Origin: Antedon mediterranea
Taxonomy: Eukaryota; Echinodermata; Crinoidea; Comatulida; Antedonidae
Direction of reading: 5' to 3'
DNA: 64,000 nucleotides
NCBI RefSeq assembly: GCF_964355755.1
Contig: NC_092677.1
Location: forward strand, 1,121,001-1,185,000
A program made the position numbers and the translations under genes. Each line of letters starts with the position of its first letter. The first letter of the stretch is position 1. Positions 1,308 to 64,000 of the stretch are shown here, one piece after another. The notes beneath the pieces were generated by a model. That model saw nothing but the letters and a program-made list of their open reading frames with translations, ran no database searches and was not told the origin of the DNA.

Positions 1308-1887
1308 TTTTAAATACAGAAGTTCCAAAGAGTGAGAATGATTGTAATTCAACTGGTCTTGTTGTTGTAATGACGTTTGTTGGTGTGCTCATTGGATTCA
1401 TTATCTGTTTGCTTGTGGTTGTTATCCTCAGCAAAATAAGGAAGTCACATGCAAAGGTAAAGTATAATTCATAAAGTAGAACAAAAAGCAAAAGTGTAGA
1501 CTTAAAATTATCAAAGGTTTAATGAAATACCGCACACTTAAGTAATGGACACTATTTTAACATTAGATATGATGTTTTATTTTGAAGTTACCTACATCGA
1601 AAAACACCAACCAAACAGGGCCATGGGTAAGGATGTTACTTCAACTTTAAATATTCACTTTACTCATCATCATCATCATCATCATTTATTATTACTATTG
1701 TCACCAATATATCAATAAAGGTTTACACGATTTTCATTCTTTTTTCATTTTTTTTTTGCAACAGGCGTATATGACTTACACTGGAAAGACAGATAAAGAT
1801 ACAAGCCACACATACCAAGATTTACGGAAGAAAGAAGATAATCAAGCTGTATATGTAAATGTTAAAGCCAAAAAGGGCAAAAAATAA
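1308..1887 (+). pseudogene. Gene 1: 3' half of an Ig receptor gene (TM, short and tail exons)
   Basis: Three exons remain: transmembrane 1308-1456, short exon 1588-1626 and tail 1765-1887. All have sound splice sites and reading frame. The first gives an extracellular stalk, a hydrophobic span around VGVLIGFIICLLVVVIL and a basic stop-transfer IRK. The tail ends VYVNVKAKKGKK. The hinge, both Ig domains and the leader are absent: directly upstream, at 1286/1287, the sequence switches to the 3' flank of another copy's tail exon. Unless exons left of the window splice in, this is a truncated copy. The tail acceptor here has a single AG (gcaacag) where other copies have three. Confidence 0.75.
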
Positions 1888-1972
1888 TGAATGTTAAAAT
1901 AAAAATAAATAATTTTTATTATTAATTGGTTTAAATCTTCAATCACATACCTCTTGTTGATTTTATTATAGA

Positions 1973-1978
1973 AATAAA
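1973..1978 (+). terminator. Candidate poly(A) signal of gene 1
   Basis: AATAAA sits about 90 bases after the stop in a block (attatagaaataaagagaaa) that is conserved downstream of genes 3, 4, 5, 6 and 8. Conservation of the block favours a real 3' end signal, although other AATAAA words occur closer to the stop. Confidence 0.4.
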
Positions 1979-2219
1979 GAGAAATCATAATCTGTAGAAA
2001 GTGTTTTCTTTTCTCTTGATGTAACTCTTTAACGCGCACCGTACAAATTTAATAACAAGGAAATGTGAATGCTGCAATTTGTATCATCATTAAAAAAAAA
2101 AACCTATATATATTTTTTTTTTCTTACGGGTAGGCCTACATTGACATAATAAATGACTATACCAGGAAAATAAATTAGACAATCAATGCTTTTAACACCA
2201 ATACGCGTGTAATTTATAT

Positions 2220-2732
2220 TATCATAGCGTTATTTAATTCAATTTAACTTTGAGATGTGCATTTGGTTGCTTGCTGCCATATTTTTTCAAAGAGTTGAGT
2301 AATGTTCAAATTTGAAACGGAAAAATTTAATTATAGGTACAAATTGGACGGAGGTTTTAAAATTGGATGCGATTGAGGTTCATTTCTTTTAAAGAAAGAC
2401 CATCAAGAAAGTTTGCACTGTTTGAACGCATTGTATAAATAAGGCCTAAAACCATGTGTTTAAATAATGGTTACTAATTGAAAAGATTAATTTGATCAAC
2501 TTGATTTGGACGGAAGTACAGTGCACTATAATTATGAAGGAAGTAAATACCTGTACAATATATCACAAGTGTGAATGGCAGTCATGACAAAGACAGGAAC
2601 AATCAATATTTCAGTATACGATATTAGAGTATGGTAGAGTACAAGACAATAGTGAAATAGTCATCACCTAATAAAGTGGAAAAGATTTCCATATTCTATA
2701 GAATTGCGATAGAGGTGAAAAGTTCAAATGCG
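2220..2732 (+). promoter_or_regulatory. Type-A upstream region of gene 2 with TATA-like box
   Basis: This roughly 500-base block is almost identical to the regions before genes 5 and 7. A TATAAATA at 2434-2441 keeps its position in all three, and a related TATAAATAAGG lies before gene 9. A second block near 2615-2650 (tagagtatggtagagtac) recurs before genes 5, 7, 8 and 9. No experimental start site is known. The TATA to ATG distance is about 300 bases, so a leader or a 5' UTR intron is possible. Confidence 0.45.
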
Positions 2733-2736: not shown

Positions 2737-5700
2737 TTTTCCTGATTATTCAACTTTGTGGATGTAAGTACAAAATATTGAAAATATATCTTCCCTTTTT
2801 TCACAAAAAGACGCAATCTTAAATTGCAGTATTTATAATAATTACTGTACAGTTATATTTTAGTTTTAGGTACACATGCACAAACTACGTCTGTGACAGT
2901 GGGTGGTGATACAGTTAAAGTTGGTGAGGATGCGGCGATGACGTGTAATTATACACTTCAAGCGGGAGATGTCTTGAATCAACTTGTTTGGTTCAGAGCA
3001 GAGGATGATGGTACTCCAGAGTTAGGAAACCTTCTGGTATCTTTAGTTGAAACAAGCAATGGTCGTTATAGCTTATCTAATGACAAGGATCTTATGATAA
3101 GTGTCGTTGAAGTAAATGATGCAGGAAATTATCTGTGTAGAATTGTAACACAAAATGTTCAAATTGCTGACGACTATGATCAACTTATAGTCCAATGTGA
3201 GTATAGGCTAATTCATTGTCAGTGAAGCTATAATCGGTATAGTACTGTTTTTAGCAGCTTTTGTTCGTTTGTTAATAAGCAATCACTAATTAACAACTAC
3301 ATTTCCTAATTTATCTTTTTTGAAATCTGTTTTGTTGATTTTACAGTAAATAGAGGTAGAGGGCGCTTCATGGTGGTTGGACGTGTTTCTGAAGTTGTAA
3401 AAGTTTTGAATCTTGTTTGCTGGTTTTGTATAGTTTATTCACGATTTTTACTTACATAAAGTCTCCATTACTCTTCTTATTGCTACAAATGTAGCTTAAG
3501 CCCTTGTATTATTCGATTTATCTTTCGATTGGAGAGATTTTTTGAGATTGTCTTTGCTAGGCCTGGGTTTGTGGTTGGACGAATATCTGTTATCGGAAAG
3601 TCTTTGAATCTTGTTTGCTAGTTTACTTTCATATCATTATCATTCCTATTCTTATTGCTTCAAATTTCTGCTTGAGCTCTTACTGTATTCTAAGGACTGG
3701 TGAGATTTTTATTTTTTAGATTGTCTTTCGCTAGGCCTAGGGTTGTGTAAGCAGTTAGGGCATGGCTTCCAAAAGCAAAGATCAAGGTGCCAGGCCAAAG
3801 CCTAGATCACGTAATGCAGGAGGCACAGTTGATAAAACGGTAGTAGATATCGAGGGTGAAGACGAATGTGGTTCATGTGGTGGCCATTTTATGTCTGGTG
3901 GCAAATCGGTTTTATGCGGTCTTTGTAAGCTATGGTTCCACATAGATTGTCAGAAAATTAATGAAGCCAAATATAAGTGGCTATCCAAAGATGACTCATC
4001 CATTTTTTGGTACTGTAGGAGCTGCTCAGTCTCAGTAGGCAATTTCATGGGTCTTATTAATAATGTTAATGAGACACAAAAAACCATGATTAAAACAATT
4101 GAAGCAATTAAATCTGAGGTAGAGATCAATAAAGAGGATATTAAAAAGTTATTCCAGTCATCTAGTGTTGTTAATAATGAGGATGTTAAGACAATAATTG
4201 AAAATAGACTTAAGGATGAAAATGAGAGATTGAAAAGAAAATCTAATTTGATGCTATATAGAATAGATGAGTCCAAGAGTAATGACTCAGATAGAAGAAA
4301 AAATGATGACCTCAGTAAATTGGCAGGTATTTTCGAGGATATTGACCTAGAGGTCGAAATGAGAACATTTTTCCGGGTGGGTAAACACAGAGAAGATGGG
4401 TGCCGCCCTATAAAGGTAGTTTTCAAGGAGGAATGTATCAAAAGAGATGCCTTTGAAATTGCTATACAAAAAAAGTGCGCAGTAAGTAATGATAGAACAA
4501 TAAAGGAACGTGATGAGTATAATAAACTTAGGGACATATTGAGGGATAGGCAAAGCAAAGGGGAAAAAGACTTGGTAATTAGAAGGGGGAAAATAACTCG
4601 GTTTCGTTCCCAAAGCACTACCCAATCGGAAGAGAACACTGCCTAACAATGTAAGTTCTACGCAGTCAGAAGATGTTAATGATTTTTTTAATGTGTTTTA
4701 TACAAATTGTGATTCCCTTCTAAATAAGAAGAATGAGCTTCTGTTGCGTTTATCTTCAGAGAAAGTAGATATCATTGCTTTGACTGAGATTCTACCAAAG
4801 AAGTACTTTTTTGAATTGTCTATAGAGGAGTTTCATATCCCTGGTTTTCAGATGTTTTTGCCAAATGAAAAGCTTTCATCTGGTAGAGGAGTTGTTATTT
4901 ATGTTCGAAATGGGATGTCTGCCACTCCGGTTTTGTTTAAAGATATTTTGTTTGAGGAATCCATGTTTGTTGAGATTAAAGTCAAGGATCGCACCTTTTT
5001 AATTGGATGTGTGTATAGAAGTGACGCCGGATCTAGTGTCAATAATTCTGCTTTGTGTTCTCTGTTTAGAAAAGTGGCATCCTTTTCTTGTTCTGATTTG
5101 ATTATAGTTGGAGATTTCAATTATAGGAGTATTAATTGGGAGCTAGGATATGTGACTGGTGAAGATGGTAAAAATAGTCATAATTTTTTCGACACCATTA
5201 ATGACTTATTTTTAGCTCAGCATGTACGAGACCCAACCCGTTACAGAATAGGAGAACAGGCCAATGTTCTGGACCTGGTACTTACATCTAATGAGGATTC
5301 TATTAGTGAGGTCCTTCAAGCTCCACCATTAGGTAAGAGTGATCATATGGTACTTCAATTTAAAATTCCAGTTAATTTAATCAAAGAAGAGGTGGTAGAG
5401 GTCAGAAATTATTTCCATGCTGATTATGATAAGTTTCGTGGTTTTCTTGATGGTGTCGATTGGGACACTGAGTTATTGGATAAGGACGGGTTACACTCGC
5501 ACGGTTCTTTTGATGAGATCTTATCTAGAGGTATGGAACAGTTTGTTCCAAAGTGTAAGAAACACTTGTCTGGAAATGTTAAGAGACCTTTGTGGTATAC
5601 TAAGGAGGTTGATAAGTCTATTAAACAGAAGAATAAATGCTGGAAACAGTATATCAAAGCAAAACGTAAAGGGCATGACTGTGCTAGTGTCAAATGGAAC

Positions 5701-8700
5701 ACGTTTATTAGAGTAAGGAATGATACTGTCAATTTGATTAAGAGTTCTAAAAGCATCTTCGAAAATAAGATTGCAAATGAGGTTAAAGTCAATGAAAAGT
5801 CTTTTTGGCGCTATGTAAATTCTCAGTTAAACACCAGATCTGGTATTCCTACTCTTAGAAATGTTGAAGGTAAACTTGTTGTAGATGACCAAGATAAAGC
5901 CGAGTCTTTTAATTCTTTTTTTAGCAGTGTCTTTTGTAAGGAGAACTTATCGAATGTTCCGAATCTTGATAAAAAGATTGAGGCTTCTTTGTCAGATATT
6001 GAGTTTAATGTAGAAGATATTCATAAGCTGTTGTCTAACTTAGTTATAGATAAGTCAGCTGGCCCTGATGGCTTTCACCCACGGGTTTTGATTGAATTAA
6101 AGGATCAAATTGCTTACCCTCTCAGTCTAATATTCACTAGATTATTCAATGATCAGAAGGTCCCTCTATCGTGGAAGGAGGCAATTGTAATACCTATATT
6201 TAAGAAAGGCAAAAAGGAGGACCCGGCTAACTACAGACCGGTTAGTTTAACGTCGGTCATAGGGAAAATGATGGAAAGGATTATTAGGGATAAACTTGTA
6301 ATGTATCTTGAGAGTAATGGTCTTTTGTGCAATGAGCAATTTGGATTCAGACAAGGTAGATCATGTGCATTACAACTACTTGATGTCCTGGAGAGTTGGA
6401 CTACTAACCTGGATAACCATGATAGCTTTGATTGTGTCTATTTAGACTATAAAAAGGCCTTTGATAGTGTGCCACACCAAAGGCTTCTAGTCAAATTGAA
6501 AGGTTTTGGTATTACGGGAAATCTACTAGGATGGTTCTCTAATTATTTGTCAAATAGAACACAACGAGTTAGTGTCAATGGTCAATTGTCATCACAGGCT
6601 CCAGTATTAAGTGGAATTCCACAGGGTAGCGTTGTGGGCCCAATCTTATTTTCAATCTTCATTAACGATTTACCTGATGTTGTCGAATCTAGTATACGTT
6701 TATTTGCAGACGACACCAAGTTGTATAGAGTGGTCAATAACATTGATGATGCAGATTTATTTCAAAGAGACATTGACAGTGCTTCCCATTGGTCTAATGT
6801 TTGGCAATTGCCTTTTTATGACACTAAGTGTAAGGTATTTCATTATGGTCGTGATAATCCCAATTTCTTGTATTCAATGGCTGGTAATTTACTACATGAG
6901 GTAAAGCAGGAGAAAGATCTAGGTGTTACCTTTGATCATAGTTTAATCTTTAATTTGCATGTAGCGGATATTTGTAAAAGAGCTAATAAGAAACTAGGAA
7001 TGATTTATAGATCTTTTAAATTCTTGAATAAAGATGGATTTTTGAAGCTGTATAAGTCTATTGTCAGGCCAACGCTTGAATATTGTAACACTGTTTATAA
7101 TCCTATTAGAAAACGAGATCAGGATGAAATAGAGAAGGTCCAGCAAAGAGCAACAAGATTGATTCCTAGGTACCGTAATATTCCTTATAAACAACGTTTG
7201 AGAATTCTTGGTCTTCCTACCATGAGATATCGAAGGCAGAGAGCAGATATTATCCAAGTTTTTAGGATTGTTAAAGGTTTCGATCGTATTTCGATTTTTG
7301 AATTTGATCTAGAATCTCGGACCCGTGGACACCCATATAAACTCAAGTTTAAAAGCTCTCGTCTTAATATTAGGAGGGACACGTTCTCCAGGAGAGTTAT
7401 TCTCTTATGGAATACTCTGCCTATGGATGTAGTTTCATGTGCTACGGTGAACTTGTTCAAAGCAAAACTTAACGTCGCATGGTCTAACCACCCGCTGAAG
7501 TTTTCACCCTATATAGAATATGATTTTATTTCTAAGAGGGGCTTTTAAGCACTGAGTGCTTCGCCTCGATCCCGTAGACGAAAGTGTACGGGAAACAAGT
7601 AAACAAGTAAACAAGTAAATGATCTTGTATTAGTTAGTTTTTACTGTTATGGAATAATTATTTAATAACATTCAACGTTTTTTACATATTTGTTTTCCTT
7701 TTTTTTTTTTCAATATTTTAGATTTATTAGTTTTCTTGTCATGTCGACAACTGTTCAGGTGGTCAATGCTTAAAGTAATTTTTACTTATTTTGATCTCCT
7801 TTCACACATCTTTTTTCTTTTCTTATAGTTCATATATCTGTTCATTTAGTTCAATGTGTGGAAAATAAATAAATGAAACAAACAAACAAACAGTTATACA
7901 CATAACTTGTTAGACAATTCATTTTTAGACTTTCAGACCTTATCTTGATATCAGTTTAATCTAAGTCAATTTTTCACAGTATATTCCTTATGGCCAGGAA
8001 TCGATGTGGTTATGTTTTCACGGTGCGCAATAAAAAATTACGCGGTCTACGCACGATTTAACGAAATCACGTTTGTAATCATATCTTCAATACCATGAAT
8101 CACAATTAAAAAAAATTTGGTACTCATAAATTTCAGGGCATAAATCATCATATGGCAATACAATTACGTACGTAGCGCATGTAACGCATGCGTACGCGCG
8201 CTTAAAATTTTCAAAATTTATTTGCGATGAAATAAGAGTACGTTTCAGGCAATTTTAAGCGTTTACAAAATTGCCATGAGTCCGCAGATTTTTGCGCGCG
8301 CACTGCGCGTTAAATGTTGTTACGCACTCTTTTTGCCCGATTTCTGTTTTCTTGACTTACTTTTCAACTCGAAATTACGTTATACGAGCACGTCAAAAGT
8401 GACAGGCTACGCACTTGTAAATTAAAAAAATATAAATGTTTTTAAACATTTCAACATTTTTAAACATGTTCAGTAATTTCGGTCAATTGGTCGGTCGGTC
8501 GGTAAACACTAATGAGCACGCGACTGCATCCATCTATATGGCCTTGTTTTTCTAACAATTACTTTTAAACACTAGGCCTAATGTAAACATGATAAAAATC
8601 CTGTGTTGTGCTTGTATAGTAAGATTATTCTTTTGTTTTTCTAGATGTTTCAGAACCTTTTTTTAAGCCAGAAGAAGGATTATCCATCTTGATAAATGAC

Positions 8701-9998
8701 ACAGCAACATTTATATGTACTTCACTTGATGGTATTCCAACACCGATTACCATAACATGGATCAAAGATGGCAATGAACTTGATGTTTCTGATACAGACA
8801 AGTATCCGTCTTGTGATGTAGCATTAACGATTAATAAAGTTGCTGAAACAGACGAGGGAGTTTATCAGTGTAGAGCAGAGAATGCTGCTTACAGTGGAAC
8901 AGATGGGAAACTTAGTAATACTGCCACACTATCAATAGGTTGGTGAAAATAAACATTTTGATAAATAATATATTTTATTGGCATCATATTATAAGTAGTT
9001 TCTACAAGTCATAATTATTAATGGAATATTCATATTACAGTATATTATGTCATGCGGTAACAAAAATAGAGCACAGCTACAGCAAAATCTGAAAGTTTCA
9101 GTTTATTTTAGTAATTAAAGGCCTTTTGTAATGTGAACGCATGGCGTGTTTTATTAATATTGCAATTTTGTATTTTCTATTTCTTTAGCATTAACGACAA
9201 CTTCTTTTATATCCAGTAGGTTTTGCTTGCATGCATTGTATTGTAAAGTTTCAGGTTTTTGCATTTGAGAAAAGAAAACAAGGATAGAAATTGGAGGGAT
9301 ATCCCCGCCCCATCTCTAGGATCTGCATGAGTGCTTAAAAGGGAAAATAATGATGACCGTTGTATATTTGTCAACATTTCATTATTGTAAACATGTTTAA
9401 AACATGGTAACACTTAGCCTTCTGTATTATTTGTTTAGTTTCAAGTACAGACGTTTCAAATAGTGAGCGTGTGTGTAATTCAACTGGTTTTGTTGTTGGA
9501 ATGACGTTTGTTGGTGTGCTCATGGGATTCATTCTATGTTTTCTTATGTGTTTTATCATCAGCAAAATAAAGAAGTCACATCCAAAGGTAAAGTATAATT
9601 CAGAAAGTAGAACAAAAAGGGCAAAATAGCCAAGGTTTAGAGAAATACTGTACACTGCAAATAGTATATAGAAATATACATTAAATGTACTTGTTGATGT
9701 TTTATTTTAAAGGCACCGACATCGAAAAACGACAACCAATCAGGGGTAAGGATGCCATACAGCTTTCACTGCTAATTTTCACTTTGTTTCACTAATTATC
9801 ATCAAAATTGTCACCAATAAGGTTTACACGATTCTAATTCTTTTTCTATCCAATAAACTCTATTTTTAGCAGCAGGCGTATATGACATACACTGGAGAGA
9901 CAGATAAAGAAACAACCCACACATACCAAGATTTACAGAAGAAAGACGATAATCAAGCTGTATATGTAAATGTTAAAGCAAAGAGAGACAACAAATAA
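2733..9998 (+). CDS. Gene 2: type-A V-set/I-set transmembrane receptor
   Basis: Exons: leader 2733-2763, V-set 2870-3196, I-set 8645-8938, hinge 9189-9215, TM 9439-9587, short 9713-9745, tail 9876-9998. They total 984 nt, giving 327 residues. The leader MIFLIIQLCGCTHAQ resembles a cleavable signal peptide. The V domain has the core cysteines (AMTCNY, YLCRI), the tryptophan (LVWF) and the DAGNY turn. The I-set has FICTS, TWIKD and YQCRAENAAY. A single membrane span precedes a tail with YMTY, YQDL and YVNV. The four introns from leader to TM are phase 1, the last two phase 0. Intron 2 holds a complete LINE (3352-7613) and another insertion, without damage to splice sites. Likely a plasma-membrane immune-type receptor; the ligand is unknown. 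A second AG nine bases into the I-set exon would create a TAA at the junction. Confidence 0.85.
3370..3742 (+). repeat. Tandem 5' UTR monomers of the LINE
   Basis: Two related units of about 190 bases follow each other. Both contain ggttggacg, then tttgaatcttgtttgctgg/agtt, and both end near agattgtctttgctaggcct. Monomeric 5' regions in LINEs usually hold the internal promoter, so this is the likely promoter region here. Confidence 0.6.
3762..4646 (+). CDS. LINE ORF1: PHD-finger nucleic-acid-binding protein
   Basis: A 294-residue frame with a cysteine/histidine cluster at about residues 36-88 (CGSCGGHF, CGLCKLWFHIDC, YCRSC), spaced like a PHD finger. A charged, probably coiled region follows at about 105-165, then a basic C-terminal half. 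ORF1 proteins of CR1-type LINEs bind RNA and assemble the retrotransposition particle; some carry PHD fingers. It ends 46 bases before the first ORF2 ATG. The frame has no lesions. Confidence 0.8.
   Translation: MASKSKDQGARPKPRSRNAGGTVDKTVVDIEGEDECGSCGGHFMSGGKSVLCGLCKLWFHIDCQKINEAKYKWLSKDDSSIFWYCRSCSVSVGNFMGLINNVNETQKTMIKTIEAIKSEVEINKEDIKKLFQSSSVVNNEDVKTIIENRLKDENERLKRKSNLMLYRIDESKSNDSDRRKNDDLSKLAGIFEDIDLEVEMRTFFRVGKHREDGCRPIKVVFKEECIKRDAFEIAIQKKCAVSNDRTIKERDEYNKLRDILRDRQSKGEKDLVIRRGKITRFRSQSTTQSEENTA
4693..7548 (+). CDS. LINE ORF2: AP-endonuclease and reverse transcriptase
   Basis: A 951-residue uninterrupted frame. The N-terminal third is an exonuclease/endonuclease/phosphatase fold, with LTEI near residue 32, GDFNYRS near 140 and SDHMV near 216; it nicks target DNA. 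The reverse transcriptase follows with DKSAGPDGFHP, NYRPVSLTSV, FDSVPHQRL, GIPQGSVVGP and the catalytic LFADDTKLY. The C-terminal region contains the thumb-like part common in CR1/Jockey elements. It reverse-transcribes the element RNA at the nick. All catalytic motifs are present, so this copy could be competent. True translation may start slightly upstream of the first ATG. Confidence 0.9.
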   Translation: MFYTNCDSLLNKKNELLLRLSSEKVDIIALTEILPKKYFFELSIEEFHIPGFQMFLPNEKLSSGRGVVIYVRNGMSATPVLFKDILFEESMFVEIKVKDRTFLIGCVYRSDAGSSVNNSALCSLFRKVASFSCSDLIIVGDFNYRSINWELGYVTGEDGKNSHNFFDTINDLFLAQHVRDPTRYRIGEQANVLDLVLTSNEDSISEVLQAPPLGKSDHMVLQFKIPVNLIKEEVVEVRNYFHADYDKFRGFLDGVDWDTELLDKDGLHSHGSFDEILSRGMEQFVPKCKKHLSGNVKRPLWYTKEVDKSIKQKNKCWKQYIKAKRKGHDCASVKWNTFIRVRNDTVNLIKSSKSIFENKIANEVKVNEKSFWRYVNSQLNTRSGIPTLRNVEGKLVVDDQDKAESFNSFFSSVFCKENLSNVPNLDKKIEASLSDIEFNVEDIHKLLSNLVIDKSAGPDGFHPRVLIELKDQIAYPLSLIFTRLFNDQKVPLSWKEAIVIPIFKKGKKEDPANYRPVSLTSVIGKMMERIIRDKLVMYLESNGLLCNEQFGFRQGRSCALQLLDVLESWTTNLDNHDSFDCVYLDYKKAFDSVPHQRLLVKLKGFGITGNLLGWFSNYLSNRTQRVSVNGQLSSQAPVLSGIPQGSVVGPILFSIFINDLPDVVESSIRLFADDTKLYRVVNNIDDADLFQRDIDSASHWSNVWQLPFYDTKCKVFHYGRDNPNFLYSMAGNLLHEVKQEKDLGVTFDHSLIFNLHVADICKRANKKLGMIYRSFKFLNKDGFLKLYKSIVRPTLEYCNTVYNPIRKRDQDEIEKVQQRATRLIPRYRNIPYKQRLRILGLPTMRYRRQRADIIQVFRIVKGFDRISIFEFDLESRTRGHPYKLKFKSSRLNIRRDTFSRRVILLWNTLPMDVVSCATVNLFKAKLNVAWSNHPLKFSPYIEYDFISKRGF
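7927..8547. other. Insertion of unknown type in intron 2 of gene 2
   Basis: The paralogous introns of genes 5 and 7 run directly from gacaattcattt to ctaacaat, whereas gene 2 has about 620 extra bases here. The insert is rich in GCGC/ACGCATGCG words and holds a short ggtc repeat near 8490. No coding region, inverted termini or poly-A tail was found. Confidence 0.5.
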
Positions 9999-10292
9999 TG
10001 CATCTTAAATTGTTAATGAAATATCACAGTTTGTAAATTGTTGATTTTAATAATATAACTCAATCATTTATGGGTAAAACTGACAAATTAATTAATTAAG
10101 TAATTTAAAATAACAAGAAAAAATTGAATTCTGCAATTTGTTATAAAAAACCCATACACTTTATACCTAGTGCCATTGCCTATGGCGTATAGCAAGATGT
10201 GATGTAAAGATGAAAGCCATAAGACATATCTAAAAAACAAGATACATTTATATGAATTCTATTTCTTGGTCATTATTTCGTACTGAAATTAA

Positions 10293-10836
10293 AGATGTAT
10301 TGTCCATTGAAACACACAAAATGAAAAAAAAAAATATTCTAAATTTAAATTGGCCATATCAAAGTAATATTAAAGTTATTCACTTTAAGTCAAAAACTCG
10401 AACCCAAAACAACAGTTTACGTAATTAACAGGTAAATTAATTAGATTACATTTCGTCTGAGAAATCGTCGCAAGCGAAAGTAAACAAAGATTTCAAACCA
10501 TGAGTATGCATTATGCATGATGCTAATTAGGATTGTTTACAACTCATCACGGTTGAGAAGGTGTTTTCACACAGATCGCGAGGAAGTTTGATTATGCATA
10601 CAGAGTAGCCAAACAAGCGCATTGCATTATGGGATATGTTTTGATTGAAAAGTTTGACTGGAAGTCAAATTTATTTTTTGAACAAAAAAACATCTGTATT
10701 TCGGTTAAATTATTTTTTTTTTGACTAACTTTTGGTGAAAGTTAATAACTATTATGATACTTCAAAATGACCCACTTTTTTTCGAAATTAAAAAAAATAA
10801 TTTTTTTTTGTAATTAGTCAAATGGACAATACATCT
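10293..10836. mobile_element. TTAA-flanked MITE (piggyBac-like target site)
   Basis: AGATGTATTGTCC begins at 10293 and its complement ends at 10836, each flanked outward by TTAA (10289-10292 and 10837-10840). Inside are imperfect inverted subterminal blocks around aagttattcacttt and AT-rich filler. The same termini bound a 2.5-kb element at 27018-29500, where an empty site proves the TTAA duplication. No transposase is present. Confidence 0.7.
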
Positions 10837-11084
10837 TTAAAATTTGCTTGTAGTTGAATCGTTGTATATTTGAAAACAACATACAAAGGAAAAATAAGGA
10901 TTTCTTACACCAACACGCGTTTAAGTTCATATTATTAAAGTGTTCTTTAATTGTGTGCATAAGTTCAACATTATTTTGAAACGAATTTCATCATCTTTCG
11001 TTCAAATGTAGCTTAATGACGGTTGACGCCCTCTACCTCTCCCGGTAGCAATCATTTTCTTACAAAATTGCTACACACTCTTTA

Positions 11085-11321
11085 AGCCTGGTTTCCATAA
11101 AATCGCTACACCGTTTCCATTGAAATCGCTACACGCGCAAATGTCGCCGACGCGCATCGGGGAGGTCTCCCCGATTCATCGCAGACAAATCGGCAAAGTT
11201 CAACCATGTTCAACTTTGCCGATTTTGTCGGCGATGAGTCGTATACGCGTGTACCAAAGAATATTTAGCTCTCGCGACAGCAGTCGGCGACACGGTGTAG
11301 CGATTTTATGGAAACCAGGCT
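11085..11321. mobile_element. 237-bp MITE with TTA target duplication
   Basis: Left terminus AGCCTGGTTTCCATAAAATC and its perfect complement at the right end bound the element; the inverted repeats run about 28 bases. TTA flanks both sides (11082-11084 and 11322-11324). A 3-bp TWA target and this size fit PIF/Harbinger-derived MITEs. The centre has a second hairpin (cggcaaagtt/aactttgccg). Confidence 0.75.
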
Positions 11322-11661
11322 TTAGTCTTCACGCTTATTAGACATTACAAGCAAGTAACGTTACAGGTTGGTTCTATTTTTTGTTAATATACGTAATACA
11401 TAAAACTACTTTCTATTATTTAGCAAATTAATTGTCACTATTAAAAATCAGGTATATTGATTCAATCGATATTGGACATGAACGATACTGTATGGTTGAA
11501 GCAGACATAATAATATATCAAAGTATGAATGGAAATCCACACTCATAACAATAATAACAATCAGTATTTCAATATACATTATATACAATCACAATAGTGG
11601 AATAGTTTTGCTTTATAGGCCCACTGGTCGTATTTAAGATTTCCTGCTTTATAGATTTGTA

Positions 11662-11722
11662 ATGAAGACGGAAATGTAAACAAGATATGTGATATCTTGT
11701 TTTTTTTTTCAACTTTGTGATT
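11662..11722 (+). pseudogene. Relic type-C leader exon in front of gene 3
   Basis: The stretch agatttgtaatg...ggaaatgtaaa...caactttgtgattgtaa aligns with the leader exon of gene 9 (61169-61223). Here the frame stops at once (ATG AAG ACG GAA ATG TAA), the hydrophobic part is replaced by poly-T and the donor is altered. It suggests that gene 3 derives from a type-C receptor that lost its leader and V exon. Confidence 0.5.
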
Positions 11723-11924
11723 GTAAAAAGACAATTCTTTTATAGATATATAGGAAATATGTTTGTTCACAAACAAATAATCTAAACATTAGGCCACCAT
11801 ACAGTATCATGGAGTAAGTAAACAAAAATGTAGATGAATCCTCATTCAGACAATACAAGAACCATCAGTGTCCTGTATACACATTGAGAGACAAGAGTGA
11901 TATTTTATTTTCAGATTATTAGCC

Positions 11925-13496
11925 ATGCTCAGAATGTCATTCTTAACAGAAGTAATGGCGATATGTGAATGTGCACTAATTTTCCTGATTTTCCTAAGCG
12001 ACTGTAAGTAGAAACTTAAATGTCATGCATGTTATTAGTAGGGTCCTACTATTATTTCAACATAGACTATAAGACTGAAATGGCTATGGACGGTGACAGC
12101 GTAACCAATTTTTATTTATCTACGAATGACGTACTGTAGATTTAAGTCATTAAAAAAATAGGCAATCATCATTTTAATATAAAGACAATTGATTTTGTGA
12201 ATACAGATCTGGAAACCCCCGTTTTGAAGTCGGACACATTATCTGTGATGATAAATGACACCGCAACATTTACATGTACTCAACTTATCGGTGAACCAAA
12301 ATCAATTAATGTCAGATGGACAAAAAATGATGCTACGCTAGATATTTCTGATACAGACAAATATCCGTTTTCTGATGCTTTATTAATTATTAATAAAGTA
12401 GATGAAATGGACGACGGAAGTTATCAGTGTGTAGCAGAGAATGCTGCTTACAGTTGAGATGAAGGAAAACCTAGTAATCCTCTTATACTCTCAGTAGGTT
12501 GGTTGCAATAAAGTTGTTATAACTAATGATACAATAATATCATATTTTATTGAGATCATAGGTATAATATAGTCTATCATAATTAGACGGAATATTCCAA
12601 CAATTATGTATTATGCGGTAATGGAAATAAAGCACAGCTACACAGTTTAATTATAAAAGGCCTTTTTATAATAATATTAATAGAACAAGAAAATATATAA
12701 AACCAATAGATGAACTGACTATGTTTAAATAACATAATCATATGTACTTTCTATTTCTTTAGCATTTACGACAACTTTTTCTACATCCAGTAGGTCAACT
12801 ACACGTACGTTTTGTTCGTTTGCATTGCACTAATAGTTTCCTATTTTTAGGTTTGCAAATAAAAAATATGACTATTGTATATTTGTTATGTCACAATCAC
12901 ATGGTAACTCTGATCCTCTTGATTTGTATATCGTTCGTACACAGAAGTTCCAAATAGTGAGGATGTATGTACTTCAACTGGTCTTGTTGTTGGAATGACG
13001 TTTGTTGGTGTGCTCATTGGATTCATTCTCTGTTTGATTGTGGTTTTCATCATCAGCAAAAAAAGGACGACAAAATCACAGGTAAAGTATAATTCAGAAG
13101 GTAGAAAAAAAAAACAGTAAAATAGTCGAAAGTTAAGTGAAATACCGTCACACGTAATGGCAAACGTATTATCATTCAATTTACTTTTTGATGTTTTATT
13201 TCAAAGGCACCGACATCAATAAATGACAACCAATCAGGGGTAAGAATGCTATACTTCAACCTTAATTATTCGCTTTCACTTTAATCATTACCATCATTGT
13301 CACCAATACACAATAAAGGTTTGCATGATTGTAATTCATCTTACTTTACTGTTGTATTTTTTTTAGCAGCAAGAGTATAATGACTTATATTGGAGAGACA
13401 GATAAAGAAACAAACCACACATACCAAGATTTACAGAAGAAAGACGATAATCAAGCTGTATATGTAAATGTTAAAGCAAAAAAGGACAAAAAATAA
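11925..13496 (+). pseudogene. Gene 3: V-less, single-Ig receptor copy with a premature stop
   Basis: Exons: leader 11925-12003 (or from the in-frame ATG at 11955), I-set 12207-12497, hinge 12763-12789, TM 12945-13081, short 13207-13239, tail 13374-13496. No V exon is found between leader and I-set, yet the phase-1 join is preserved. In the I-set exon, GGA of the conserved AYSGNEGK-like region is TGA (12455-12457), so translation would end after about 99-109 residues, before the last strand of the domain. The TM exon acceptor has moved 12 bases downstream and remains in frame. The tail has an extra A (TATAATG), but use of the third AG (cagcaag) restores frame. Either a recent pseudogene or a source of a short truncated protein. 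Confidence 0.7.
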
Positions 13497-17500: not shown

Positions 17501-18698
17501 GACAAGTATCCAACTTCTGATGCAACATTGACGATTAATAACGTTGATGAGACAGATGAAGGAATGTATCAGTGTAGAGCAGAGAATGCTGCTTACAGTG
17601 GAATAGATGGGAAACTTAGTAATACTGCCACACTGTCAATAGGTTGGTGGGAATAAACATTTTAATAAATAATATATTTTATTAGCATGTCATAATAATA
17701 AATGGAATATTCATATTACAGTATATTATGTCATGTGGTAACAAAAATAAAGCACAGGTAAACAGCGATAACTGAAAGTTTTAGTTTATTAGTCATTTTT
17801 ATAAAATGAACGCATGACGTGTCGGATTATTGCTTGTTTATTTTCTCTTTTTTTAGCATTGGCGACAACTTCTTTTATATCCAGTAAGTCAACTACACGT
17901 AGGTTTCGTTTGTTTGCATTGCATTGTAAATTTCCGGGATTTTGCATTTGCGAAAAAAAAAGGATAGCAATGGAAAGGGATATCCCTGCCCCATCCCCAT
18001 GATCTGTATCACGCCTTAAAACGGAAAATAAGTATGACTTTGTATATTTGTCAACAATACATTATTGTAAACATGTTTAAAACACGGCATGGTAACCCGA
18101 ATCCTTCTGTGTTATTTGTTCAGTTTTAAGTACAGAAGTTCCAAAGAGAGAGAATGATTGTACTTCAACTGGTCTTGTTGTTGGAATGGCGTTTGTTGGT
18201 GTGCTTATTGGTTTCATTCTCTGTTTGCTGGTGGTTGTTATCATCAGCAAAATAAGGAAGTCACATGCACAGGTAAAGTATAATTTATAAAGTAGAACCA
18301 AAAGAAAAAGTGTAGACTTAAAATTATCAAAGGTTTAATGAAATACCGCACACTTAAGTAATGGAAACTATTTTAACATTAAATATGATTTTTATTTTGA
18401 AGTTACCTACATCGAAAAACACCAACCAAACAGGGCCAGGGGTAAGGATGTTACTTCAACTTTAAATATTCACTTTACTCATCATCATCATCATCATTTA
18501 TTATTACTATTTTCACCAATATATCAATAAAGATTTACACGATTTTCATTCTTTTTTCATTTTTTTTAGCAGCAGGCGTATATGACTTACACTGGAGAGA
18601 CAGATAAAGATACAAACCACACATACCAAGATTTACAGAAGAAAGACGATAATCAAGCTGTATATGTAAATATTAAAGCCAAAAAGGGCAAAAAATAA
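14576..18698 (+). CDS. Gene 4: type-B V-set/I-set transmembrane receptor
   Basis: Exons: leader 14576-14618, V-set 16485-16805, I-set 17352-17642, hinge 17857-17883, TM 18124-18272, short 18403-18441, tail 18576-18698. They total 993 nt, giving 330 residues. The leader MMTTCCLLLFVLVFG is strongly hydrophobic. The V domain shows MTCTYTL, LSWTKAD and GNYRCAVS; the I-set shows FTCTELEG, TWIKDG and YQCRAENAAY. The short exon is the 13-residue form (ending TGPG). The tail ends with YVNI, which fits the ITAM rule (I at +3) better than YVNV. Intron 1 carries a Helitron-like element and a SINE. The I-set exon and its upstream intron are nearly identical to those of gene 6. Confidence 0.85.
14922..15205 (-). 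mobile_element. tRNA-derived SINE
   Basis: On the minus strand, the head (about 15200 to 15115) has an A-box-like TGGCTTGGTAG and a B box GGTTCAAGTCC, spaced as in tRNA genes. A body of about 180 bases follows, then a run of about 18 A (T on the + strand at 14922-14939). This head-body-tail order is that of tRNA-derived SINEs. The sister Helitron-like copy at 63285 lacks it. Confidence 0.7.
15582..15623 (+). other. Poly-G tract with G-quadruplex potential
   Basis: Runs of 3, 5, 12 or more, and 12 or more G are separated by only 1-6 bases on the + strand, inside the transcribed intron 1 of gene 4. The related element at the window end has a weaker G-rich version (63970-63999). Confidence 0.6.
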
Positions 18699-30805: not shown

Positions 30806-30844
30806 AGTAGTCCGTATGGAACGCCATTGCTGCCTCCGGCAGGA

Positions 30845-31905: not shown

Positions 31906-31949
31906 AAGTTTGCTGCTGCCGGAGGCAGCGATGGCGTTCCATATGGACT

Positions 31950-52941: not shown

Positions 52942-53168
52942 TGTTGTGGTGTTTATACAAAGTGTACTGAATGAAACGTTATTCCTCTATTGACGAACGG
53001 AGAATTACAGCGACTGCAGTATGCGCCGGTCAGTTGCTCGCCTGTGGATGTGCGATAACGGCAGTATAAGTACTATAGTTATAGGGCTAGGCCTAGGTCT
53101 GCCTCCTGTGTAGACGGTAAGTCGATATTCTTGTGGGCAGTAAAATGTGTTGCGTAGGATTTTCGTCT

Positions 53169-53184: not shown

Positions 53185-53185
53185 C

Positions 53186-57525: not shown

Positions 57526-60059
57526 ATGGAGGAAATATATTGTGCAATAATAATTCTCCTAATGTTTCAACTATCTTGTAAGTAAGAAAATAGACAACTT
57601 TCTTTTAAAAAAAATCGTATTCATAAACAAATAAATACGTAATTAAACAAATTAATTTAAGTGCGATGTAGCATGTTATGTTGAGTTACAATGCTCAGTA
57701 GATGTTTCTGTGATGTGATTGAATAGAAATGTTTTTCTTGAAATCGATTGTTGTTGACATTTTTTGTTTAAAAATGTAGCCATTGATTTTCTTCTAAGCC
57801 AAAATATATAAACTCATACCATGTATTCTATTCAGTTGTAAATTGTCAAACTAGACCTGTAGTCAGTGTACACGATGCTACTGGTAAATTAGGTGAGAGT
57901 GTTGTTATCAACTGTGATTACACACTAAGTGGTACAAGAACACTTCAGGCTGCTCAGTGGTTCAATAGCACATCAACAGGAGACCAGTTAAACCTTCTTG
58001 TTAATAGTGCTCTAACAAATCCAAATGATGGATATGCAGTTGATACCTCACAAACTGGTGTAGCTACTCTCACCATTGTAAACACAGTGTTGTCTGATGA
58101 TGGATACTATCTATGTAGAATTGTTGATTCACCTGCTGCTGAAACTGGTGACAATGTTGGAAAGCTTACTGTTTACTGTAAGTATGAATAATTACATCAT
58201 TTAACAATGAATAAATATTTTATATTAAAAATAATTTATCTTTTAATGTTTACCAGTGGCTTATCAATAATCAATAAACATTTTATTTCTCAGAATAAAT
58301 TGCATATCAACAAAAAATATCTAAATATCTACCAAGAAAAAAAAAAGGAAGAGTAAGATTATCAAACAATATCGTTGGTCAAAGAGCGAAGCTATCTCTA
58401 TTGAGAGTACATTATATTATTATATTATTATCAATATACTAATTAAACTAGAGTAGTGAAGAAATATACTTTGAGAAAGTATTCATAAAAAGAGAAAAAT
58501 AGGGAACGCCATTTTATCCTGCCGGTACTACACTCATTGAGATACAAAAATAATCTGATGCGTTTTGATAGTTGATTTCTGGAATACAGTATTCAATGCA
58601 TCTGGTTCTTTAGTTCAAACAGTCCCACATGGTGAATGTAAGACTGTTTATTTTGCATTTACAGATCTTGAAGAACCAGTTCTGAATCCAACAAAGTTGT
58701 CTGTCAACGAAACTGAAGCTGTGACATTTACATGTTCTAACTTTATTGGTGTACCAACACCAATTACCGTCACATGGATCAAAGATGACGTCACACTTGG
58801 TGTTTCTGATACAGACAAGTATCCGTCTTCTGATGCAACATTAACGATTAATGACGTTGATGAAGATGATGAAGGAATGTATCATTGTAGAGCAGAGAAT
58901 GCTGCTTACAGTGGAAATGAGGGAAAACTTAGTAATACTGCTACACTGTCAATAGGTTGGTTGAAATAAATATTTTATAACATGTTGATATAAATAAAAT
59001 GTTATTTTATTGGGATCATAGTATTTTCTGTAGAACCAAAGAGCATGTCACAATTATAAGTGAAATATTCATATTATTTTATGCGGTAATGAAAATCACA
59101 GCGACAACTGAAATATTAGTTAATTTTAGTTATAAAAGGCCTTTTGTAATATGAACGCATGACGTGTTTTATTAATATTGCAATTGTTTTTATTTTCTAT
59201 TTCTTTAGCATTAACGACGACTTCTTTTATATCCAGTAAGTCAACTACACGTAGATTTTGCTTGCATGCTTTGTATTGTAAATTTCCGGGTTTTTGCTTT
59301 TGCGAAAAGAAAAAAAGGGATAGAAATGGAAAGGGATATCCCCGCCCCATCCCATGATCTGTATCACGCTTAAAAAGGAAAATAATGATGACCTTTGTTT
59401 GTTAACACTACATTATTGTAAACATGTTTAAAACACATGGAAACACTAATCCTTCTGTAGTATTCGTTCAGTTTTAAGTACAGAAGTTCCAAAGAGAGAG
59501 AATGATTGTAATTCAACTGGTCTTGTTGTTGGAATGACGTTTGTTGGTGTGCTCATTGGATTCATTATCTGTTTGATTGTGGGTGTTTTCCTCAGCAAAA
59601 TAAGGAAGTCAAATTCACAGGTAAAAATTCTGAAAGTAGAACCAAAAGCAAAAGTGCATACTTAAAATGGCCAAAGGTTTAATGAAATACCGCACACTCA
59701 AGTAATGGAAACTATTTTAACATTAAATATGATGTTTTATTTTGAAGGTACCTACATCGAAAAACACCAACCAATCAGGGGTAAGGATGCCATACTTCAA
59801 CTTTAAGTATTCACTTTACTCATCATCATTATCATCATCATCAATTATTATTGTCACCAATATATCAATAAAGGTTTACACGATTTTCATTCTTCTTTTT
59901 CCATGCACTAACTTCTTAAATTTTTTTTAGCAGCAGGCGTATATGACTTATACTGGAGAGATAGATAAAGAAACAAACCACACATACCAAGATTTACAGA
60001 AGAAAGACGATAATCAAGCTGTATATGTAAATGTTAAAGCAAAAAAGGACAAAAAATAA
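57526..60059 (+). CDS. Gene 8: type-C V-set/I-set transmembrane receptor
   Basis: Exons: leader 57526-57577, V-set 57836-58177, I-set 58665-58955, hinge 59209-59235, TM 59472-59620, short 59748-59780, tail 59937-60059. They total 1017 nt, giving 338 residues. The leader is MEEIYCAIIILLMFQLS. The type-C V domain is longer than types A and B (342 versus 318-327 nt), with VINCDYTL, AAQWFNSTS, DDGYYLCRI and a last strand GKLTVY. NST is a glycosylation sequon. The I-set has FTCSN, TWIKDD and YHCRAENAAY. The tail has YMTY, YQDL and YVNV, with GEID for the usual GETD. Compact gene without large insertions; the 9.7-kb DNA element lies about 1.1 kb upstream. Confidence 0.87.
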
Positions 60060-60839: not shown

Positions 60840-61168
60840 CACTGTCTGAACGCACTGTATAAACATGGAGGTATAAATACATCCATGGTATAAATAAGGC
60901 CTAAAACCATGTCATTAAATAATGGTTACTAATTAAAAAGATTAATTTGACCATCTTGATTTGGACGGAAGTACATTACACTATAATTATGAGGGAAGTA
61001 AACACAATATATCACAAGCCTAACAAATGCAGTATACACTAAAAAAGATAACAATCAATATTTAAAAGTATACAATACAGTAGAGTGTGGTAGAGTGCGA
61101 GACAATTATATTATTATTTATAATATCGAAGCGGGGTTTAAATATTTCAATCATTTTACAGATTTGTA
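60840..61168 (+). promoter_or_regulatory. Upstream region of gene 9 with three TATA-like boxes
   Basis: TATAAA occurs at 60858, TATAAATA at 60872 and TATAAATAAGG at 60889; the last corresponds to the box of type-A genes, and the others come from a small local duplication (atccatggtataaa). The tagagtgtggtagagtgcga block follows at about 61081, and a ttttacag acceptor-like word stands just before the start. Confidence 0.45.
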
Positions 61169-63212
61169 ATGGAGGAGAAATGTAAAGGTGCGATAGTTCT
61201 TCTGATTGTTCAACTTTGTGGTTGTAAGTATGAATATTGAAAATACCTGCAATGATGAATGATGTAACCAATCCTAGATAAAACTGTATATTTTTGTAAT
61301 CATGTTTGAATCGAAGTTGTTGCATTTAAAATGCAGCCTGACAATTTCGGTGGTTTATTTGTTTTATAAATGCTTTAAGTTTGCAATCTTTTTCGTTCAT
61401 AATTATATTTTAATAATCAACGTGAACAAATACTAGTTTGGATACAACTAGATTATTTAAACACATTTGTTTTTATTTTCTTATTTGTTAAAGTTACAAA
61501 TGGTCAAACTGAACCTGTAGTCAATGTGCAAAATGCTAATGTTAAATTAGGTGAAGATTCTGTTATCACATGTGAATACACACTCAGTGATTCAAGAACA
61601 CTTCAGGCTGCTCAATGGTACAATAGCACATCAATAGGAGATAGGTTAAACCTTCTTGTTAATAGTGCTGAAACGAATCCAAATGGTAGATATGCAGTTG
61701 ATACCACACAAACTGGTGTAGCCACTCTCACCATTGCAAACACAGTGTTGTCTGATGAGGGATACTATCAATGTAAAATTATTGATTCACCTGCTATTGA
61801 AACTGGTGAAGATTATGGAAAACTGACTGTTCAATGTGAGTACAAATTGTTATATCATTTAACAAGACCTATTTTCACATTTAAAATAATCTTAATTATT
61901 ATAATATTTACTTTAAGGTTATAGGTTAGTCCAAAAAGCATTGCAATATACCTTATCGTTTATTTATTTATAGAACTTTTTTAACATCTCCATTGAGATC
62001 CAGCTAGTGATACCCATTTATCAGTAGTTTGCCTTTTGATTTATGTTTACATTTAATATTTTCACGTACCTGTTAATGTTCGCCATTGGCTAACGAATAA
62101 TAAATAATCAATCAATTTAAATAGTATGCATAAGTAAGAAAATAAATAGATTTGTAAAAAGCTAACCAGGAAGAGAGATATTACTATTCTTTTCTGGGCT
62201 TCAAACAAAAGCATTAATCAAAGAGAAGCTATCCCTATTGATACATTGTATTCAATTAATATACTGATTGTTGATCAGGTTTCATAAAACCAAACACTTA
62301 ACATACAAAATGGAAGACCAATGAAAGTACAGTACAGTACAATAAGAAGATAAAACAAGGTCGTCGTGAGGTGGTTTCCCGAATGATCGTAAAATCAAAA
62401 CGGTACTGGTTATGACCAACTAACATTATTATCACCGGCTAGTCATCCATTCATAGAAGTACTAATGTAGTAGCCTACCTGTACGGCGACCATAGAATGT
62501 GACCCGAGGCATGACTAACTACGACTTTTAGATGATAGAAAGTTGAAAAAAAATGTTACGAGTAGTTGTACGACATGAAGATGTTTATGAAATTATGTCA
62601 ATAATGTTTACACACTAGGCATACAAATAGTAAATGTTTGTTAGTAAAAATAATTTTGAGTTAATAAGAATAAGATATAAGGAAGAAAACATTTTTTCTC
62701 AACTTTCTATCATCTAAAAGTCGTAGTTAGTCATGCCTCGGGTCACATTCTATGGTCACCGTACAGGTAGGCTACTACATTAGTACTTCTATGAATGGAT
62801 GACTAGCCGGTGACAATAACGCTAGTTGGTCATAACCAGTACCGTTTTGATTTTACGATCATTCGGGAAACCACCTCACGATGATGATAAAAGTAAAATT
62901 TTTTGTTTTTTGCCTTTACAGATCTTGAAAACCCGGTTCTGATTTCAACAGGATTGTCCGTTAACACAAATGAAACTGTGACATTTACGTGCTCTGATCT
63001 TATTGGTATACTGACACCGATTACCATCACATGGATCAAAGATGACGTCATACTTGATTTGTCTGATACACAAAAGTATCCAACTTCTGATGCAACATTA
63101 ACGATTAATAATGTCAATGTAACAGATAAGGGAGTTTATCGCTGTAGAGCAGAGAATGCTGCTTACAGTGGAACAGATGGGAAACTTAGTAATCCTGTTA
63201 CACTGTCAATAG
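61169..63212 (+). CDS. Gene 9 (partial): type-C V-set/I-set receptor
   Basis: Exons seen: leader 61169-61223, V-set 61494-61835, I-set 62922-63212. The leader is MEEKCKGAIVLLIVQLCG. The V domain closely resembles that of gene 8 (VITCEYTL, AAQWYNSTS, DEGYYQCKI, GKLTVQ). The I-set has FTCSDLIG, TWIKDD and YRCRAENAAY with an intact frame. The hinge, TM and tail exons are not found before 64000, because a Helitron-like element begins at 63285 in the next intron. By analogy the gene continues beyond the window. Intron 2 holds a foldback MITE (62365-62880). Confidence 0.83.
62365..62880. mobile_element. Foldback MITE in intron 2 of gene 9
   Basis: Two arms of about 185 bases, 62365-62546 and about 62700-62880, are inverted copies with few differences. 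The tips are CGTGAGGTGGTTTCC and its complement, and the loop is about 150 bases. No coding region. Target duplication not resolved. A fragment of the same family lies upstream of gene 8. Confidence 0.8.
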
Positions 63213-63284
63213 GTTGGTGGGAATAAATTTGTTACAACTTGTTGATACAAATCAAATCGTATTTTATTGGGATCATTCATAGTA

Positions 63285-64000
63285 CTAGAGGGTGAGCTCG
63301 CTTCACTCGCTCTCCCTCTAGGAAGTGTAGATGATGGTTCTCGGAATGATAATGACTCGGGTAAAAAGGTTTAGAAGGACATTCTGGCCTGGACAATTTC
63401 GGTCGGTTACCATTATTTAAATGCTTTTGATATTCGTAAAACCAAACCTACTCACTAACCTGTTTCACAGTGTCTTACATGATTAATAGCGTTTTACGTA
63501 TATGTTTGAAAAATTTCATCTGGTTGTGGAATAGGTATTAAATAAAATTTCTTTTTGAACAACCAAAAACTAATTTAAGCGAACTTACAGTACGTTTCGA
63601 AACCTATCAGGGTTCATTCTCAACTGGCGTTTCATCGTCTAGCGTTGTTAATTCCATGACGACGATGAGTTGGTATAGCGCCACCAATAGGTCCAAAAGG
63701 ACGTGCCCCCTTCTCTTTCTTCAATAGTTGATCATATATGTGTGATAATTCGTGGGCTCCTTCATCTATGTTCATGATTTTGATATATCCTGTTTTACGT
63801 ATAGTGTTTATTGTAGATTTGAAAAGTGGTAAAAAAAGAATAACAAAAATGATTGGTAAATTGTAGATAACAGTTCGATGAAATCTACTAAAAATAATAT
63901 AATTGTGATATAATACATTGTTGTGTGTATAAATGTGGATGGGCGTTTATTAGATGGTATTTGGATGGGTGGGGGAGGGGCGGATTGGGAGGAGTGGCGA
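63285..64000 (-). mobile_element. Helitron-like element, family 2, at the window end
   Basis: Starts CTAGAGGGTGAGCTCGCTTC after an A. Gene 8 reads gggatcatagta/ttttctg at the same place, so insertion was again between A and T. It matches the 14846 copy without the SINE and runs out of the window. Confidence 0.65.

Follow-up and report, generated by a model that had tools for sequence, protein, structure and literature searches.

A tandem array of V-set and I-set receptor genes with a common tyrosine-bearing tail as candidate germline-diversified recognition receptors

Introduction

Teleost novel immune-type receptor (NITR) genes lie in clusters and are built from leader, V, I, transmembrane (TM), C1 and C2 exons; their V domains are diverse and their type I products mostly carry no charged residue in the membrane (PMC2442602). 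In Hydractinia, 41 Alr genes with V-set and I-set domains have been described (PMC11999971). SpTransformer (Sp185/333) is a sea urchin effector family with mosaic, recombination-like variation in its cluster (PMC13428168), chicken BG is an expanding and contracting array of V-domain genes (PMC4046983, PMC5043582), and amphioxus VCBP proteins combine two V domains with a chitin-binding domain (PMC2632668). A 2026 review of immune diversification presents, for echinoderms, expanded Toll-like receptors, NOD-like receptors and scavenger receptors together with the SpTransformer effectors and, in the part available, names no V-domain receptor array (PMC13428168). Here, we describe a tandem array of genes that combine a V-set and an I-set immunoglobulin (Ig) domain with a TM segment and a cytoplasmic tail rich in tyrosine motifs, found in a stretch of 64,000 nucleotides (C8:1121001-1185000, the window) of the contig C8.

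We consider it fairly probable that the array encodes germline-diversified, tyrosine-signalling recognition receptors in which varied V domains are set on a common I-TM-tail module. Our best reading is that it may work as the NITR or Alr clusters do, with many germline receptors, varied V domains and a common signalling end.

The clustered leader-V-I-TM-cytoplasmic exon order of NITR is found in the array as well. Nevertheless, three features that define NITR are not found in its predicted products. The J or J-like motif FGxGTxLxV is missing, the V exons ending in residues of the NFANLTVY, DDYDQLIVQ or KLTVQ type and the I exons in LSNTATLSI-like residues; five aligned I exons hold two or three Cys, against six in NITR I domains, and some other I exons lack the first canonical Cys; and the immunoreceptor tyrosine-based inhibitory motif (ITIM), (S/I/V/L)xYxx(I/V/L), occurs in none of 57 tails. 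Moreover, the array has a hinge exon and a micro-exon, and its host is not a fish. With Alr it shares tens of clustered invertebrate V-set plus I-set type I genes, a likeness in described gene content and layout; the ectodomain of an array unit has one V and one I domain, the host is an ambulacrarian and not a cnidarian, and no Alr protein was among the 60 matches listed, of 137, for the V-I ectodomain in the PDB. SpTransformer resembles it in being echinoderm and in varying as a mosaic within a cluster, but consists of effectors rather than Ig-domain membrane receptors. Chicken BG is likewise an expanding and contracting array of V-domain genes, with exchange between gene ends; it differs in its single V domain with long coiled-coil tails and in lying in the vertebrate major histocompatibility complex region. 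VCBP is a V-type immune family of an invertebrate deuterostome, and VCBP3 is among the folds nearest to the array V domain (Z 12.9, tied with others), whereas the array has V and I domains, a TM segment and a tyrosine tail in place of the two-V, chitin-binding plan. No echinoderm family of such design was among the matches listed from the open-access literature, in searches partly aimed elsewhere and with most subscription papers outside them.

Layout and exon plan of the array

Chained matches place the array at C8:1.114-1.629 Mb, a span of about 0.5 Mb that extends well outside the window, with about 60 receptor units or remnants head to tail, about ten of them inside the window. In the assembly searched (354 Mb, 18 contigs; E<=0.001), the TM query gave 64 matches, all on C8 and 63 of them at 1.116-1.628 Mb, and the tail query gave 70, of which 68 lie on C8 and two on contig C6. 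Chance can be ruled out because the matches of this whole-genome search concentrate in the C8 interval. Every TM and tail match of the array is on the plus strand; a V/I pair on the minus strand within the interval is 1347877 and 1350524 (units beyond the window are named by their C8 positions).

The unit plan comprises a leader exon, a V exon (phase 1-1), an I exon (1-1), a 27-nt hinge exon, a TM exon (1-0), a micro-exon of 33 or 39 nt and a tail exon, and is backed by conserved AG/GT sites and matching phases. A pattern search of the DNA fetched found the hinge exon (27 or 24 nt) with its splice sites at 26 places, and the other exons were located by splice-aware extraction. The predicted products would be type I membrane proteins with a short hinge and a cytoplasmic part of about 55 residues, presumably expressed at the cell surface. 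Six exons were scanned with Pfam. All four V exons passed the V-set cut-off and scored higher for V-set than for I-set, and both I exons scored higher for I-set; the V-set and I-set matches passed the curated cut-offs throughout, except I-set in three V exons.

Chaining gave 45 chains with V, I, TM and tail in order, along with many that are incomplete. Seventy of the 99 chains were read as unit records, the other 29 being single-exon matches, some on the minus strand or outside the array. Open exons were found in 46/57 (V), 48/64 (I), 49/61 (TM) and 48/61 (tail) cases, and all four main exons are open in 26 of the 70 records; these counts are rough, since the exon script trimmed the V start by about nine residues in some type 3 copies (e.g. 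1178862) and some leaders and micro-exons escaped the limits of its patterns. The 46 open V exons fall into type 1 (18), type 2 (11, of which three are distant and match the type only at 0.54-0.57), type 3 (16) and one other.

Some units recur in pairs whose members stand 131-134 kb apart on C8: 1385331/1516630 are near-identical, and 1396677/1530059 and 1129647/1263470 have identical match scores. This spacing could be due to a large segmental duplication of recent date or to haplotypes that the assembly has placed one after the other.

A gradient from V exon to tail and exchange of modules

Per-exon statistics were computed for the 26 units whose four main exons are all open, 25 of which entered the pair tests. 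Mean amino-acid identity rises from 0.50 in V to 0.68 in I, 0.82 in TM and 0.90 in the tail. Mean synonymous divergence (dS) is 0.80, 0.35, 0.12 and 0.16 in the same order, and the ratio of nonsynonymous to synonymous divergence (dN/dS, as ratio of means) is 0.62, 0.65, 0.77 and 0.30. The tail is thus constrained, given its dN/dS of 0.30, but the 3' part is also younger, since dS falls from V to TM and tail. Given the low dS and the near-identical introns, the constant 3' end appears to reflect largely recent homogenisation or module exchange, in addition to constraint.

Distances in V and in the tail are uncorrelated (Mantel r = -0.03, p = 0.58), and those in V and TM are weakly correlated (r = 0.23, p = 0.02); agreement is better for V-I (r = 0.44), I-TM (0.54) and TM-tail (0.35). 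Units 1240198 (V1) and 1178862 (V3) illustrate the break. Their identity is 0.32-0.61 across the upstream flank, V exon and intron 2. Inside the I exon, the first 100-nt window reaches 0.96, and from there to the tail the values stay at 0.77-0.97, introns included. V1 and V3 are both found with one I type. Different V types are therefore placed on one near-identical 3' module, introns included.

Divergence, recombination and loop variation in the V exon

Among 300 pairs, 23 have upstream DNA less than 10% divergent; they are drawn from 19 shared units and are not independent. V is more divergent than intron 2 in 19 of these 23 and than I in 18. Their mean divergence is 0.095 for V, against 0.055 for intron 2, 0.053 for introns 3-4, 0.049 for I and 0.034 for the upstream DNA on which they were selected. 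Where introns 3-4 served for the selection (37 pairs), V is more divergent than I in 34. An early version of the V-over-intron test, in which 31 of 35 pairs had V above intron 2, was biased because its pairs had been selected on intron 2; it was set aside and repeated with pairs selected on other segments.

V dS is raised as well in the pair test (mean 0.158, vs 0.064 in intron 2). Positive selection alone was therefore rejected as the cause of V divergence, and conversion from other V exons would be a simpler one. V1 exons look mosaic in the run test (p = 0.001) and in the decay of linkage disequilibrium (LD; p = 0.0002). The mosaic and entropy tests used 11 of the 18 open V1 exons, and the run and LD tests covered V1, V3a and V3b; in V3b the signal is weaker (run p = 0.03, LD decay p = 0.015).

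The V1 domain was modelled as an Ig fold with a predicted local distance difference test score of 88.6, and this model (six window sequences) supplied the borders between loops and strands. Entropy in the 11 V1 exons is 0.71 in the BC, C'D and FG loops and 0.35 elsewhere (p = 0.005; 0 of 106 circular shifts). On the predicted model, V1 variation concentrates in these loops, which are like complementarity-determining regions (CDR-like).

In Foldseek, the first row for the V1 model is NCAM, followed by a TIGIT-nectin-2 entry. The 50 VIA-align rows shown (Z 12.7-13.8) include CD155, CRIg, TIGIT, PD-1, nectins, antibodies and amphioxus VCBP3, and the non-V Ig domains of Sidekick, NCAM2 and Robo1 tie with V domains among them. 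Because so many Ig folds tie in these scores, no nearest relative can be named. A PDB sequence search with the V-I ectodomain gave titin, Dscam, Robo and contactin as best matches.

Receptor units in the window

A tblastn search of the window with exemplar exons found nine tail, eight TM, eight I-set and seven V exons, all on the plus strand and following one another as V, I, TM and tail; the best E value per exon is at most 1.3e-17, apart from a truncated TM exon at 21001 (1.4e-6). The sequence-only reading had counted at least nine head-to-tail copies with a common seven-exon plan. The order, plan and strand were borne out, but V, I, TM and tail are all open only in the units with V exons at 2870, 16485, 22774 and 57836; a fifth, at 61494, runs off the window edge, and the rest are broken or fragments. 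The three V types with their own leaders, also proposed there, are evident: the V exons at 16485 and 22774 belong to type 1, those at 2870, 19656 and 37775 to type 2, and those at 57836 and 61494 to type 3. The leader candidates differ accordingly, for example MMTFCLLLFVLVF (type 1), MIFLIIQLCG (type 2) and MEEKCKGAIVLLIVQLCG (type 3). The features of the window are as follows.

1066-1191, plus strand: tail exon from a broken unit whose start lies before the window, at C8:1119052; a clean acceptor is missing immediately 5'
1308-1887, plus: unit fragment without V and I, with TM 1308-1456 and tail about 1765-1887 (tblastn)
2733-2763, plus: candidate leader exon, type 2
2870-3196, plus: V-set exon, type 2 (Pfam, tblastn)
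8645-8938, plus: I-set exon of unit 2870 (Pfam, tblastn)
9189-9215, plus: 27-nt hinge exon of unit 2870, ALTTTSFIS
9439-9587, plus: TM exon of unit 2870 (tblastn)
9713-9745, plus: 33-nt micro-exon of unit 2870, APTSKNDNQSG
9870-9998, plus: tail exon of unit 2870, with stop (tblastn)
12207-13496, plus: broken unit with I exon carrying a stop (12207-12497), hinge, TM 12948-13081, micro-exon and tail 13374-13496; no V exon recognisable in 9996-12210, where it was sought
14576-14618, plus: candidate leader exon of unit 16485, MMTTCCLLLFVLVF
16485-16805, plus: V-set exon, type 1 (Pfam), structure predicted
17352-17642, plus: I-set exon of unit 16485 (Pfam)
17857-17883, plus: 27-nt hinge exon of unit 16485, ALATTSFIS (pattern)
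18124-18272, plus: TM exon of unit 16485, with juxtamembrane Cys (tblastn)
18403-18441, plus: 39-nt micro-exon of unit 16485, LPTSKNTNQTGPG (read by eye)
18570-18698, plus: tail exon of unit 16485, YMTY...TYQDL-x9-YVNI (tblastn)
19519-21485, plus: type 2 pseudogene unit; V at 19656 with stop, I with frameshift, TM truncated (tblastn)
22189-22228, plus: candidate leader exon of unit 22774, MMTFCLLLFVLVF
22774-23091, plus: V-set exon, type 1 (tblastn)
23616-23906, plus: I-set exon of unit 22774
24147-24173, plus: hinge exon of unit 22774 (pattern)
24414-24562, plus: TM exon of unit 22774
24861-24995, plus: tail exon of unit 22774 (tblastn)
37775-43657, plus: broken unit, type 2, with V 37775-38101 and I carrying a stop 38735-39019 (Pfam, tblastn)
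43087-43235, 43341-43373 and 43529-43657, plus: TM, micro-exon and tail forming the 3' part of unit 37775
57526-57577, plus: candidate leader exon of unit 57836, MEEIYCAIIILLMFQLS
57836-58177, plus: V-set exon, type 3, acceptor CTATTCAG; script-trimmed start at 57863
58665-58955, plus: I-set exon of unit 57836 (Pfam)
59209-59235, plus: hinge exon of unit 57836 (pattern)
59472-59620, plus: TM exon of unit 57836
59748-59780, plus: 33-nt micro-exon of unit 57836
59931-60059, plus: tail exon of unit 57836 (tblastn)
61169-61223, plus: candidate leader exon of unit 61494, MEEKCKGAIVLLIVQLCG
61494-61835, plus: V-set exon, type 3 (Pfam)
62922-63212, plus: I-set exon of unit 61494 (tblastn); remaining exons past the window

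Transposable elements also lie among these exons. A non-LTR (long terminal repeat) retrotransposon with reverse transcriptase occupies about 3759-7548 (plus) inside the V-I intron of unit 2870, another retrotransposon with reverse transcriptase lies at 39558-42902 (minus) inside an intron of unit 37775, and an LTR-type reverse-transcriptase element at 48031-52986 (minus) stands between units. An imperfect inverted repeat at 30424-32345, about 86% over 680 nt and with arms made of tandem repeats, is foldback-transposon-like.

The transmembrane and tail exons

Among 57 tails, the array-type YxxL/I motif was found in 53, YxN(V/I/F) in 52 and both in 49 (46 at spacing 9, three at spacing 8). With the spacing relaxed and V allowed at +3, a twin-tyrosine motif is present in 48 of the 57, and YxN in 53. 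The ITIM-like sites have a non-consensus first residue, and the twin motif falls outside the test for an immunoreceptor tyrosine-based activation motif (ITAM; YxxL/I x6-8 YxxL/I). The tail thus resembles immune tyrosine tails while fitting no strict definition; its YVNV-type sites are reminiscent of ligands of GRB2-family SH2 domains. Of the 49 open TM exons, four have a charged membrane residue or were unmatched, and 48 carry the juxtamembrane Cys motif.

The window tail has no Pfam family at E<=1, and the TM and tail exons have none above cut-off. In the PDB, a variant tail matched nothing and the window tail matched a single hypothetical protein (E 0.35). Together with the literature matches listed, this agrees with the initial remark, whose author knew of no described family with exactly this tail.

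The TM and tail exons are also found away from the V-I units. At C6:1003000-1008500, a TM exon (E 4.8e-9) and a tail exon (E 5.9e-11 within the locus) stand 3' of two FN3 exons (Pfam fn3, 2e-11 and 9e-12), and a second copy lies near C6:1.030 Mb. From their order and strand, these FN3, TM and tail exons probably form one gene, an apparent swap of ectodomain. Of the 53 matches to the C6 TM in the reciprocal search, 51 belong to the C8 array and the other two to C6. At C8:1027800-1037500, neighbouring V3-type exons stand 5' of a related TM and tail, an apparent V-V relative.

At C8:4.70-5.78 Mb there is a second, larger cluster, with numerous weaker I-set matches distributed over both strands. 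A sample of it (C8:4740500-4749500) contains I-set exons and frames with YQALQ...YKEL and YQDLQ...GYVRP motifs.

The I-exon donor is of a weak kind, with GTTGGT in 35 and GTTTGT in four of the 43 units read. In 39 of the 43, read-through past the I exon would be ended by an in-frame stop no more than 14 codons on, and AATAAA follows within about 60 nt in 30. The first 50 nt 3' of the donor are conserved at 0.79-0.95, vs 0.55-0.67 beyond (e.g. window 17643-17692), although the AATAAA itself is conserved no more than neighbouring bases. We speculate that a secreted V-I form might be made by alternative polyadenylation, in a manner like the secreted/membrane switch of IgM.

Discussion

The reading of the array as germline-diversified recognition receptors would involve the following course of events. 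New receptors would arise by tandem duplication, recombination would join different leader and V exons to the 3' module, and short conversion tracts would probably pass from one sibling exon to another; the CDR-like face would thereby vary on an unchanging signalling end. The V domain would most likely bind a foreign or allogeneic ligand, and tyrosines of the tail (TYxxL, YVNV) would be phosphorylated and recruit SH2 proteins in haemocyte-like cells. The immune role is an inference from architecture and from the pattern of variation.

The sequence-only reading had seen here varied recognition on a fixed signalling end, the pattern of a diversified innate receptor cluster. The identity gradient and the V1 loop variation support the former, but the constancy of the tail would owe much to homogenisation or exchange; the latter is supported by the roughly 60 units over 0.5 Mb, although at least one main exon is not open in 44 of the 70 records, in some because no more than a fragment was chained or fetched. 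Several further results weigh against our interpretation. Of the 26 open units, 12 have a leader that the patterns detect within 600 nt, 21 a hinge and 24 a micro-exon, and the exon joins come from conservation rather than from transcripts. Of the 37 pairs selected by introns 3-4, no more than 25 have V above intron 2, and in 28 the I exon diverges more than the selected introns. V dN/dS is about 0.7 in close pairs and above 1 in two. The I exons of the tested V1 units are also significant (run p = 0.004, LD p = 0.0005), so that recombination is not limited to V; V3a was negative in the run and LD tests (p = 0.12 and 0.70). The pairwise homoplasy index (PHI) was not significant for V exons (V1 p = 0.07, V2 0.96, V3 0.27) or for I exons (0.09-0.35), and was run on the 3' module without usable sites. 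Finally, strict ITIM and strict ITAM each occur in 0 of 57 tails.

Other explanations have to be considered alongside. Clustered V plus I genes are of the kind described for Alr in the available part of that source (PMC11999971), and the array might be an allorecognition system like that of Hydractinia, in which the partners of V domains are identical or allelic receptors of other cells and not pathogens. The cell-cell receptors nectins, CD155 and TIGIT are indeed among the nearest folds, but antibody and T-cell-receptor V domains tie with them, and we regard such a system as rather unlikely. Fold and sequence matches bear on a second possibility, namely adhesion or neuronal recognition receptors of a Dscam, nectin or CEACAM-like kind, expanded for cell identity and with a constitutive tail. 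NCAM heads the Foldseek rows, Sidekick, NCAM2 and Robo1 tie with V domains, and titin, Dscam, Robo and contactin lead the PDB matches to V-I; however, such matches are usual for I-set domains, and V divergence above that of introns, the pseudogene load and the turnover of the array fit recognition conflict better, which makes this explanation quite improbable.

It could also be supposed that the array is mostly decaying, its V diversity a remnant of old duplications and its 3' constancy mere concerted evolution, as the many broken copies, the low TM and tail dS and near-identical duplicates such as 1385331/1516630 might suggest. We find this very improbable in view of the constraint on the tail (dN/dS 0.30), the 26 units open in four main exons, and V exons that differ beyond their own introns and, in type 1, mainly at loops.

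The interpretation as diversified recognition receptors could be extended, in a form that we put forward only as a doubtful suggestion, to an echinoderm complex built on a portable TM plus YxxL/YVNV cassette joined to V-I, V-V and FN3 ectodomains, in which sibling exons, those for V above all, rewrite one another in the germline through templated conversion, and with a possible secreted V-I form. Within that suggestion, templated sibling conversion might be a germline analogue of vertebrate V-gene conversion. An ambulacrarian V-set array with a portable tyrosine tail would bring diversified Ig superfamily recognition receptors, and recombination between V and signalling modules, to the deuterostome branch beside vertebrates. 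The array makes it testable whether such arrays are ancestral or had several origins.

Genes of the host

A search for COX1, made to establish the mitochondrial code, gave no match in the assembly. All 104 homeobox matches fall on 11 contigs of 22-41 Mb; the four small contigs sampled measure 13-567 kb. The Hox cluster on contig C2, whose genes were named by inspection of the homeodomain rather than from a tree, has 12 Hox genes beside an Evx-like gene. Three of the 12 are Hox11/13-like, and the one in the middle of these is inverted; another is Hox9/10-like, and eight are other Hox genes. A Hox9/10 gene and three Hox11/13 genes in one cluster are the ambulacrarian pattern, so that an ambulacrarian host is well supported. 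The host is probably a crinoid, to which a karyotype of 11 chromosomes (n = 11) would point. For comparison, crinoids and starfish have both Hox4 and Hox5, and most echinoderms have 36-46 chromosomes, according to the part of the source available (PMC3308324).

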